A stretch of 64,000 nt of DNA, taken from assembly GCA_018702955.1 (NCBI GenBank), contig JABJEK010000057.1:1-64000 (forward strand). The letters are read 5' to 3'. Source of the stretch: Rhodospirillaceae bacterium (lineage in GTDB: Bacteria; Pseudomonadota; Alphaproteobacteria; UBA6615). Below are positions 18,576 through 64,000 of this stretch, one piece after another. Positions within the stretch are counted from its first letter, which is position 1, and every line of letters begins with the position of its first letter. A program made the translations under genes and the position numbers. A model generated the notes under the pieces. That model saw only the letters and a list, made by a program, of their open reading frames with translations. It was not told the origin of the DNA and ran no database searches.

Positions 18576-19232
18576 ATGGCACCTCCGTTGATGCCGAAGG
18601 CCACGGCGGTTTGGCTTGTTGAGAATACGTCGCTGTCGTTCGCACAGATTGCGGACTTTACCGGCATGCACCAGCTCGAGATTCAGGGCATCGCCGACGG
18701 CGAGGTCGGGGTCGGCATGCATGGGCTCGATCCGGTGACCCACGGTCAGGTTACGGCGGACGAGATCGAACGCTGCCAGGCTGATCCCGCAGCGCGTCTC
18801 GTGCTCCAGGAATCGGACAACCCCGCACCGGTCAAGCGCACCAAGGGCCCGCGTTACGTTCCGGTCTCGAAGCGCCAGGACAAGCCCGACGGTATTGCCT
18901 ATCTGGTCCGCTACTATCCGGAACTCAGTGACGCCCAGATCGGCAAGCTGATCGGCACCACAAAGCCGACCATCGTGGCCATTCGCGAACGGACCCACTG
19001 GAATTCTTCGCAGATCCAGCCCCGGGACCCGGTGACAATCGGCCTGTGCCGACAGGTTGATCTCGATGAGGCGATCGAGAAGGGCCGCAAGGCGGGCCGC
19101 CAGCCGGCAGCCGATGATCGCCGTCCGATCAGCGCCGATTTGATCCCCGAAGAAGAGCCCGCACAGAGCCGAATTCCCGATTGGATGGCCGATGTGCGCA
19201 TCGGTGGCGGGAACAATCAGGGCGACAACTAA
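18576..19232 (+). CDS. trcR: Cell-cycle transcriptional regulator TrcR (DUF1013)
   Basis: A 218-residue protein of the DUF1013/TrcR family, which is restricted to alphaproteobacteria. It holds two helix-turn-helix-like segments: one near the N-terminus (SLSFAQIADFTGMHQLEIQGI) and one in the middle (LSDAQIGKLIGTTKPTIVAI), followed by RTHWNSSQIQPRDPVTIGLC. Family members are assigned as cell-cycle transcription regulators. A good ribosome site (AAAGGAG) precedes the ATG. A terminator follows, and beyond it an intergenic stretch that probably encodes small RNA. Confidence 0.9.
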   Translation: MAPPLMPKATAVWLVENTSLSFAQIADFTGMHQLEIQGIADGEVGVGMHGLDPVTHGQVTADEIERCQADPAARLVLQESDNPAPVKRTKGPRYVPVSKRQDKPDGIAYLVRYYPELSDAQIGKLIGTTKPTIVAIRERTHWNSSQIQPRDPVTIGLCRQVDLDEAIEKGRKAGRQPAADDRRPISADLIPEEEPAQSRIPDWMADVRIGGGNNQGDN

Positions 19233-19261
19233 GTTATTGATATTAAATAATTAGCGTGGAA

Positions 19262-19289
19262 ACGGGGTCCGGTTCGGGCCCCGTTTTTC
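19262..19289 (+). terminator. Intrinsic terminator of trcR
   Basis: Nine-pair stem with one G-U (19262-19270 with 19276-19284), loop GGTTC, then TTTTT. Confidence 0.85.
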
Positions 19290-19305
19290 GTATGTGCAGG
19301 CGGCG

Positions 19306-19320
19306 TTAACCATTTCTTAG
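19306..19320 (+). promoter_or_regulatory. CtrA-box-like site
   Basis: TTAACCAT followed by TTAG: the spacing TTAA-N7-TTA(G) matches the CtrA consensus TTAA-N7-TTAA at seven of eight positions. It lies just upstream of the putative small RNA and directly after trcR. Confidence 0.45.
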
Positions 19321-19334
19321 ACATTGCCTGCAAT

Positions 19335-19393
19335 TATGTGTGTGATGGCTCCTCCCATAGACCATCTTTGGATCTTACCTAGATCCTCTTTTT
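19335..19393 (+). ncRNA. Putative small RNA with an exposed CUCCUCCC loop
   Basis: Between the trcR terminator and metY (303 bases without a gene) lies a stem GATGG/CCATC (19344-19348 with 19362-19366). Its 13-base loop contains CTCCTCCC. A second hairpin, GGATCT/AGATCC (19370-19375 with 19381-19386), follows with TCTTTTTT, an intrinsic terminator on the plus strand. Loops exposing anti-Shine-Dalgarno CCUCC runs are a hallmark of many alphaproteobacterial trans-acting small RNAs. The 5' end is not determined. Confidence 0.45.
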
Positions 19394-19415
19394 TGCCTCC
19401 CTGTTTGACTTCGAG

Positions 19416-19450
19416 CCGCTTCGGGACCCCCTTCCGGAGCGGTTTTCTTT
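19416..19450 (+). terminator. Further terminator-like hairpin upstream of metY
   Basis: Stem CCGCTTCGG/CCGGAGCGG (19416-19424 with 19434-19442, one wobble) followed by TTTTCTTTT. It is the third plus-strand terminator-like structure in 190 bases. It may end a second small transcript that contains GCCTCCC, or attenuate metY transcription. Confidence 0.55.
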
Positions 19451-19535
19451 TGCCGATGCCGTCCATGCCGGTTCAAGCCCGGGCCCGGTTGGGATAAGTT
19501 CCGCAGCGAATTCCCATCGCTGCCGGACAAGACCC

Positions 19536-20840
19536 ATGATCGATCCCAAGCATCTGAAGTTCGCGACGCTGAGCCTGCATGCGGGACAGCACCCCGACCC
19601 GGTGACCGGTGCGCGCGCCGCGCCGATCTATCAGTCGACCTCCTATGTCTTCCCCGATGTCGAGTATGCGGCGAGCCTGTTCAATCTCGAGCGGGCGGGG
19701 CACATCTACTCGCGGATATCGAACCCGACGGTCGCGGTGTTCGAGGAACGCATGGCGGCACTCGAGGGCGGGGTCGGCGCCATCGCGACGGCCAGCGGGC
19801 AGGCGGCGATGAGCCTCGCGGTGATGACGCTGATGGGCGCGGGCGGTCATATCGTTGCCTCGCGGAATATCTACGGCGGCACCCATAACCTGTTCGTGCA
19901 CACGCTACCGCGTTTCGGGATCACCACCACATTCGTCGATCCCCGCGACCCGGACGCCTTCAAGGCCGCTATCCGCGATGAGACACGGGTGGTCTTCGCC
20001 GAGACGATTGGTAATCCGGGACTTGAGGTTCTCGATATTTCTGCGGTGGCCGAGGTGGCGCATGACGCCGGCCTACCGCTGCTGGTGGACGCCACCTTCT
20101 CGACCCCCGCGCTGCTGCACCCGTTCGAGCATGGGGCCGACCTGATCATGCACTCGGCCACCAAATGGATCGGGGGGCATGGGGTCGCGATTGGTGGCGT
20201 GTTGATCGACGGTGGGAGTTTCGATTGGGAAGGCTCGGGCAAGTTCCCGGGCATGACCGAACCCTATGCCGGGTATCATGGCCTCGATTTTGCCGAGGAG
20301 TTCGGTCCCGCCGCCTTCATCATGCGTGCGCGCGCCGAGGGCTTGCGCGACTTCGGCGCCTGCATGGCGCCGCAGACGGCGTTCTATCTCCTGCAGGGGC
20401 TCGAAACCCTGCCGATACGCATGGCGCGGCACGTGGCGAATGCGCAAACGGTGGCGGCATTCCTCGAGGGCGTCGACGAGGTCGCGTGGGTCACATATCC
20501 GGGGCTGGAGAGCCACCCCGACCATGCGCTGGCGGAAAAGCTTCTGCCGGAAGGCGCGGGTGCCATCGTCACGTTCGGCGTCAAACCCGGCACCGAGGGA
20601 CCGCGGCGCGCAGGCGCCAAATTCATCGAGGCGCTGGAGCTGTTTTCCCATCTGGCCAATGTGGGTGATGCGAAATCGCTGGTGATCCACCCGGCGAGTA
20701 CGACCCATCAGCAGATGAGCGCCGAGGACCTGGTGGCCGCAGGCGTGGGCGAAGAAATGGTGCGCCTGGCGATCGGGCTCGAGGATCCGGGCGACATCGT
20801 CGCGGATTTGAAGCAGGCGCTGCGCGCCTCGCAGAAATAG
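19536..20840 (+). CDS. metY: O-acetylhomoserine sulfhydrylase
   Basis: PLP enzyme that makes homocysteine from O-acetylhomoserine and sulfide, in direct-sulfhydrylation methionine synthesis. The 434-residue length fits MetY better than the shorter MetZ/MetB (about 390). Signatures: YSRISNPTVAVFEERMAALEGG, ATASGQAA, DATFSTPALLHPFEHGAD and the PLP lysine in HSATKWIGGHG; the C-terminus SHLANVGDAKSLVIHPASTTH is canonical. It is followed after 10 bases by the hydrolase gene, so the three plus-strand genes here probably form an operon. Confidence 0.93.
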   Translation: MIDPKHLKFATLSLHAGQHPDPVTGARAAPIYQSTSYVFPDVEYAASLFNLERAGHIYSRISNPTVAVFEERMAALEGGVGAIATASGQAAMSLAVMTLMGAGGHIVASRNIYGGTHNLFVHTLPRFGITTTFVDPRDPDAFKAAIRDETRVVFAETIGNPGLEVLDISAVAEVAHDAGLPLLVDATFSTPALLHPFEHGADLIMHSATKWIGGHGVAIGGVLIDGGSFDWEGSGKFPGMTEPYAGYHGLDFAEEFGPAAFIMRARAEGLRDFGACMAPQTAFYLLQGLETLPIRMARHVANAQTVAAFLEGVDEVAWVTYPGLESHPDHALAEKLLPEGAGAIVTFGVKPGTEGPRRAGAKFIEALELFSHLANVGDAKSLVIHPASTTHQQMSAEDLVAAGVGEEMVRLAIGLEDPGDIVADLKQALRASQK

Positions 20841-35773: not shown

Positions 35774-35801
35774 GGCGGCGCTGTACCTGCATAAAAAGAA
35801 T

Positions 35802-35822
35802 GGCCCGGGCAGGGCCCGGGCC
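35802..35822 (-). terminator. GC-rich hairpin between the LysR gene and gap
   Basis: Nine-pair perfect stem GGCCCGGGC/GCCCGGGCC with loop AGG. On the minus strand it is followed by ATTCTTTTT, on the plus strand by no T-run. It therefore looks like a backup terminator for leftward transcription from gap. Confidence 0.5.
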
Positions 35823-35929
35823 AAAGGTAAGATCGTTTCAGGGAGGAATCGATCGAAATGTCGTGCCGGCTGCGTGCCAGCATAACGTCTATGTAGGGCG
35901 TGCTTGGTCGGGATTAAACGGGCACAAAA

Positions 35930-63594: not shown

Positions 63595-63656
63595 ACTTCT
63601 AGTTTCTGCAGCGGGCCACACCTCCCCAACGAGGTGCGGCGTTCTGTAAGGAGCGC
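63595..63656 (+). promoter_or_regulatory. SerC-type leader hairpin
   Basis: Just upstream of serC lies CACCTC-CCCAAC-GAGGTG (63619-63624 with 63631-63636), extended outside by GCC/GGC, then GTTCTGTAAGGAG with the ribosome site. TTCTGCAG precedes it. A hairpin at this place with the final part touching the ribosome site is the description of the SerC leader known from alphaproteobacteria. Confidence 0.6.
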
Positions 63657-63659
63657 GTC

Positions 63660-64000
63660 ATGACGCAAACAACGAATAAACCGGGCACCCGTCCGGCTTC
63701 ACCCCTCTTTTCTTCTGGCCCCTGCGCCAAGCGACCCGGCTGGTCGCTGGATGCGCTGACCGATGCGAGCATCGGTCGTTCGCATCGCGCGAAGGGACCC
63801 AAGGCCAAACTCCAGCGTGTCATTGAAGACAGCCGGTCGATCCTGGGAATTCCCGAGGATTACCGGATCGGCATCGTGCCCGCCTCGGATACCGGCGCGT
63901 TCGAGATGGCCATGTGGTCCGTGCTCGGTGCGCGGCCCATCGATATCCTCGCCTGGGAAAGTTTTGGCCAGGGATGGGCCACGGATGTGGTCAAGCAGCT
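63660..64000 (+). CDS. serC: Phosphoserine aminotransferase, N-terminal part (runs off the right edge)
   Basis: PLP enzyme of serine synthesis. The visible 113 residues start [20 protein letters not shown] and continue [38 protein letters not shown], and [15 protein letters not shown], the pattern of the alphaproteobacterial SerC type. The frame stays open to base 64000. AAGGAG precedes the ATG. The serC leader hairpin lies immediately upstream; serA usually follows, outside the window. Confidence 0.94.

Follow-up and report, generated by a model that had tools for sequence, protein, structure and literature searches.

BjrC1505 (Rfam RF02356) is a small RNA described from Bradyrhizobium japonicum. 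We found no function for it in the literature searched. For several other alphaproteobacterial RNAs, a mode of action or a characteristic loop has been reported. The alpha-r8 RNA SisA of Caulobacter pairs through a CCUCCC seed with mRNA ribosome sites and represses, together with Hfq (PMC12559287). The "cuckoo" or ar14 RNAs of the Rhizobiales (SmelA075, SmelA099, NfeR1) carry the anti-Shine-Dalgarno sequence CCUCCUCCC in hairpin loops (PMC3927594). In Caulobacter crescentus, the exposed C-rich 5' loop of GsrN pairs with G-rich mRNA leaders (PMC5869019), and CcnA is a small RNA with a C-rich loop that is tied to CtrA (PMC8959179).

Here, we analyse the region between trcR and metY in a 64,000-nucleotide stretch of DNA from a Rhodospirillaceae bacterium, referred to as the window. 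Our comparison makes it fairly likely that this region encodes one trans-acting RNA, at about 19344-19451, which would be a diverged ortholog of BjrC1505 with its own promoter, a CtrA-type box and an action against ribosome sites. The relationship to BjrC1505 is our main result and was absent from the preliminary description of the locus.

Like the ar14 RNAs, the window RNA combines an anti-Shine-Dalgarno loop motif with several hairpins and a terminator. However, ar14 RNAs present CCUCCUCCC in each hairpin loop, whereas only hairpin 1 of the window RNA has the full motif, CUCCUCCC; the ar14 model (RF02344) gives the window a score of 17.3 bits, below its cut-off of 58.8. CcnA is encoded at the replication origin, and its gene position bears no resemblance to that of the window RNA. 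GsrN differs by its EcfG/SigT general-stress promoter, by activating katG and by its usual location near a stress-response locus and not at trcR. Both GsrN and CcnA were considered for the window RNA and set aside.

Organization of the trcR-metY region

The preliminary description had placed three plus-strand hairpins, their T-runs and a CtrA box downstream of trcR, and all of them were found at these positions; the upstream neighbour, given there as trcR, matches Pfam PF06242. The region comprises the following features:

18576-19232, plus strand: trcR (DUF1013, cell-cycle regulator TrcR), upstream neighbour; Pfam PF06242, E 2.9e-63
19260-19289, plus strand: intrinsic terminator of trcR; fold -22.7 kcal/mol, z -4.0; kept in relatives
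19306-19320, plus strand: CtrA-type box TTAA-CCATTTC-TTAG (TTAA-N7-TTAG); 7/8 consensus bases
19332-19337, plus strand: probable -10 element AATTAT (GATATT in relatives), judged only by position and alignment
19344-19451, plus strand: small RNA of ~107 nt with predicted ends; conserved block with compensatory changes
19344-19366, plus strand: hairpin 1, GATGG-CTCCTCCCATAGA-CCATC, from folding
19349-19356, plus strand: CUCCUCCC motif in the loop of hairpin 1
19370-19386, plus strand: hairpin 2, GGATCT-TACCT-AGATCC, from covariation
19387-19394, plus strand: T-run 3' of hairpin 2, TCTTTTTT; may act as an early stop, chiefly in the window's genus
19395-19409, plus strand: single-stranded core GCCUCCCUGUUUGAC, the best conserved part and likely anti-Shine-Dalgarno seed
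19413-19451, plus strand: hairpin 3 (stem 19413-19445) and T-run TTTTCTTTT, the RNA terminator; -21.5 kcal/mol
19468-19500, plus strand: conserved promoter-like sequence of metY, CCGGTTCAAGC ... GATAAGTT, from the alignment
19536-20840, plus strand: metY (O-acetylhomoserine aminocarboxypropyltransferase), downstream neighbour; NF006004, E 4.6e-226

Since the promoter-like sequence at 19468-19500 is conserved, metY probably starts on its own. The RNA stretch holds no conserved ORF, in keeping with its earlier description as ORF-free: the listed frames overlap and are unconserved, and the alignment contains frame-breaking indels. Elsewhere in the window, a serC leader (RF00517) is found at 63609-63660 on the plus strand with 55.3 bits.

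Relationship to BjrC1505

A search of Rfam at the gathering cut-off yielded no match in the RNA region. Below this threshold, RF02356 aligns over its full length (1-140) to 19297-19449 with 13.9 bits, against a gathering cut-off of 50. A covariance model (R1) was built from members of the host's family only, with the box region left out. R1 matches 15 of the 24 family genomes at 63-126 bits, and in other alphaproteobacterial families it finds matches at E-values of 1.9e-5 to 6e-4, with one at 0.04. All R1 loci outside the host's family carry GAYGCCTCCCTGTT or a near variant, and two of the R1-found loci exceed the Rfam cut-off for BjrC1505, L113 with 91.3 and L112 with 57.4 bits. The reverse model (R2), whose 21 input loci all lie beyond the close relatives, recovers the window RNA with 27.0 bits (E 1.5e-4). 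This reciprocal recognition with above-cut-off BjrC1505 loci is supportive but not specific: R2 also matches alpha-r8/mmgR loci, at 13-37 bits, so that the model score alone cannot split BjrC1505 from alpha-r8.

The core and the gene context are shared as well. A GCCUCCCUGUU core between a small hairpin and a terminator is common to the window and to BjrC1505-type loci of 14 other families, and the likeness extends to the GAGCCGC terminator stem and to an upstream CtrA-type box. In a class-wide RF02356 search combined with gene context, most BjrC1505 loci have a quinone oxidoreductase gene and trcR nearby, and nearly all have at least one of the two. The block shared between these loci and the window consists of quinone oxidoreductase, trcR, RNA and metY, and the RNA directly precedes metY in the same orientation in L112, L177, L178, L187 and the window. 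In contrast to BjrC1505, the window RNA has an added CUCCUCCC loop in hairpin 1, and its immediate upstream gene is trcR itself. As its score falls under the Rfam cut-off, we regard the window RNA as a diverged ortholog and not as a certified member. As a separate observation, locus L189 (G380) contains two tandem BjrC1505-like copies separated by ~200 bases, both with a perfect TTAA-N7-TTAA box.

Distinction from alpha-r8

The window RNA could alternatively be a diverged member of alpha-r8 (RF00519; mmgR/suhB, SisA-D of Caulobacter), with a CCUCCCU seed before the terminator and dependence on Hfq, instead of BjrC1505, a reading we consider unlikely. RF00519 matches 19381-19457 with 21.6 bits (E 0.023), which exceeds the RF02356 score and falls short of the RF00519 gathering score of 41 bits, and alpha-r8 loci are in turn recognised by the BjrC1505-like model. 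In both RNAs, a weak hairpin precedes and a terminator follows the single-stranded CCUCCCU seed, and the two resemble each other in the seed and in the ACUUCG-GCCG stretch. However, the window's genome possesses a separate alpha-r8 copy above the cut-off (G000:C123:23358-23429, 50.5 bits). At the core, alpha-r8 has UUUCCUCCCUA, whereas the window shares GCCUCCCUGUU with BjrC1505; the bases flanking the seed differ, and in place of the alpha-r8 10-mer UUUCCUCCCU the window RNA reads UUUUGCCUCCCUGU. Further, alpha-r8 is encoded elsewhere in the genome, none of 18 alpha-r8 control loci has a CtrA-type box, and the gene neighbourhood of the window is that of BjrC1505 loci. Thus, core letters, neighbourhood, box and the separate alpha-r8 gene in the same genome set the window RNA apart from alpha-r8.

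A second alpha-r8-like candidate occurs in the window at 35786-35891 on the minus strand, downstream of a GAPDH-like gene. It consists of GATTCCTCCCTGAAACG followed by a strong GGCCCGGGC terminator and scores 20.6 bits with RF00519 and 17.8 bits with R2.

Conservation, structure and number of RNAs

Among 40 relatives compared by blastn, the host's family is represented by 24 genomes, of which 15 have an alignable trcR-metY gap; 16 other families gave no match to the stretch. When 84,980 genomes were scanned for the exact pattern, the form with hairpin 1 plus core turned up only in close relatives, apart from a few chance matches. The alignment contains four conserved blocks, namely the box, hairpins 1 and 2, the core GCCTCCCTGTT with hairpin 3, and the promoter-like element before metY. 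Within the family, the RNA is gone in G005 and degraded in G001 and G017.

Folds are more stable than those of shuffled sequences, with z-scores of -2.8 for hairpins 1 and 2, -3.1 for hairpin 3 and -3.9 for all. Pair counting in the model-fitted alignment reveals 11 stem pairs with changes on both sides, compared to a mean of 4.7 in shuffled alignments, and 0 of 500 shuffles reach 11. Stem 1 is mostly invariant, and covariation support comes from helices 2 and 3, with both-side changes in 5 of the 6 pairs of helix 2 and in 5 of the 14 predicted pairs of hairpin 3. The features of the preliminary description are conserved in relatives, with the stretch kept in 15 family genomes and compensating changes in stems 2 and 3. 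Its CCUCC motifs likewise proved to be exposed, conserved elements. Hairpin 1 is kept in genera g1 and g6, and a second CCUCC motif has been added in the first loop in the window's genus and its sister g6. In g7 and g9, the motif is gone from loop 1 and has moved to loop 2 (UCCUCCCU; GGATCCTCCCTAGATCC).

The T-run behind hairpin 2 leaves room for a different partition, in which two short RNAs end at 19394 and 19451, or a 50-nt RNA is followed by a downstream back-up terminator. In the window's genome, TCTTTTTT directly follows hairpin 2, which is also listed by the terminator scan. We nevertheless judge this partition rather improbable: the stem of hairpin 2 has only 6 pairs, and merely ~18 nt, without a conserved promoter, separate the T-run from hairpin 3. 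In addition, several sister species have a broken T-run, which reads CTCTTGATG, TTTTGATG or TTCATGATG, while core and hairpin 3 are kept. Only the window's genus and a few relatives possess an intact middle T-run, whereas hairpin 2, the GCCUCCCUGUU core and the last terminator are retained. Hairpin 2 is therefore no general terminator, and the earlier statement that every T-run ends a transcript was too strong; the middle one may terminate at most in part of the group. Of the one or two small RNAs previously proposed after trcR, one is upheld, and two are disfavoured by the unconserved T-run. Since this T-run is unconserved and the core GCCTCCCTGTT is the best conserved part, we favour one RNA of ~107 nt. 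Judged from the sequence comparison, the conserved small-RNA gene between trcR and metY appears to be real, with one RNA of this length as the simplest reading.

A CtrA-type box upstream of the RNA

We compared 39 orthologous loci of 15 families, and 36 of them show at least 7/8 bases of TTAA-N7-TTAA in the interval from 100 to 70 bases upstream of the core. The box mostly lies at -84 to -96 relative to the core, and its 7-base spacer is free to vary in sequence. Apart from the alpha-r8 controls, the box frequency is 1.5% in random DNA of the same loci and 1.9% in AT-matched DNA. Because the RF02356 model itself covers the box, loci picked with the Rfam model could be box-biased; the box is present in all six loci outside the close relatives that were found with the box-free model R1 (L106, L107, L112, L113, L114 and L126). 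The near-perfect CtrA box that had been noted at 19306-19320 is thus confirmed at 7/8 bases, lies at a fixed upstream distance and is conserved far beyond chance.

In the Rfam alignments, the box falls within the first ~20 model positions, and many pairs of real matches within positions 1-45 are non-standard (broken). We infer that positions 1-45 of RF02356 represent promoter DNA and not RNA. The literature searched, to which the original description of BjrC1505 did not belong, contains no report of a class-wide conserved box.

Occurrence of the CtrA protein was surveyed with an approximate Caulobacter sequence as query at E<=1e-80, i.e. above ~53% identity. CtrA was found at 69-72% identity in 7 of the 24 family genomes. 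At this threshold, it was undetected in the window's assembly (G000; 92.8% complete, 145 contigs) and in 16 other family genomes, among them the box-keeping G002, G003 and G011 as well as G005, G001 and G017, where the RNA is gone or degraded. Across the family, CtrA and the RNA show no significant association (6/7 vs 8/17, p 0.10). Where ctrA was found and inspected, it adjoins chpT-like and flagellar genes (L351, L352, L353). As ctrA lies near a contig end in two cases, real loss of CtrA and assembly gaps are both possible. CtrA control in this organism is only putative, given that CtrA was detected in just 7 of the 24 family genomes, this assembly not among them.

These data also bear on whether the region comprises only terminators and promoter remnants and yields no stable RNA in the host, CtrA having perhaps been lost. 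The lack of detectable CtrA in this assembly and the coincidence of RNA loss or degradation with undetected CtrA in G005, G001 and G017 are in line with such decay. Yet core, stems and box have stayed whole, with compensating base changes, in the window's species and in no fewer than four close relatives, which renders this reading decidedly improbable. That the RNA is instead a leader or attenuator of metY is highly improbable, for although it lies immediately upstream of metY here and in L112, L177, L178 and L187, the interval between the two holds a strong terminator and also a distinct, conserved promoter-like element, metY is out of reach in many loci, and in G008 (L106) trcR and the RNA are followed by an HSP20-type gene.

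Proposed mode of action and target search

Returning to a single BjrC1505-like RNA, we propose that it is transcribed from its own promoter, with the CtrA-type box over the -35 region read by CtrA or by another factor recognising TTAA-N7-TTAA. The transcript would present two small hairpins, the single-stranded GCCUCCCUGUU core and a strong terminator. Its CCUCC motifs may pair with purine-rich ribosome-binding sites of mRNAs and thereby lower translation. By analogy to alpha-r8 SisA and the Rhizobiales RNAs with anti-Shine-Dalgarno loops, blocking of ribosome sites is the most likely function.

Among genes with AACAGGGAGG before the ATG, 11 of 24 encode periplasmic solute-binding proteins, compared to 2 of 17 in a loose control. 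Against the context-matched control AADAGGGAGG (8 of 23), the excess vanished (p 0.32), and solute-binding-protein genes as a group were rejected as targets. As the matched control behaves alike, the excess is put down to the strong ribosome sites that such genes have. In several species, one gene for a TRAP solute-binding protein retains AAACAGGGAGG or AACAGGGAGG. The motif is lost in G005, which lost the RNA, and in G001, where the RNA is degraded, and also in the RNA-bearing G006, G011, G012 and G014; the case for this gene as a target is suggestive at most. Its ribosome site reads AACAGGGAGG in several RNA-bearing species and AAAAGGGAGG in G005 (L215, L221, L203, L266, L267 and L312).

Implications

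If our reading is true, the BjrC1505 model of Rfam overlooks diverged members, and its first positions lie in the promoter. On a wider view, BjrC1505 and its unrecognised orthologs may constitute one class-wide anti-Shine-Dalgarno RNA of the CtrA regulon, switched by this regulator of cell cycle and motility, encoded beside trcR and metY in at least 15 alphaproteobacterial families and with a model start that is promoter, a proposal to which we assign an even chance. CtrA control of the promoter is a prediction that can be tested in cultured Bradyrhizobium or relatives. Should the promoter box hold across most of the class, the cell-cycle master regulator would have a broadly conserved small RNA under its control.
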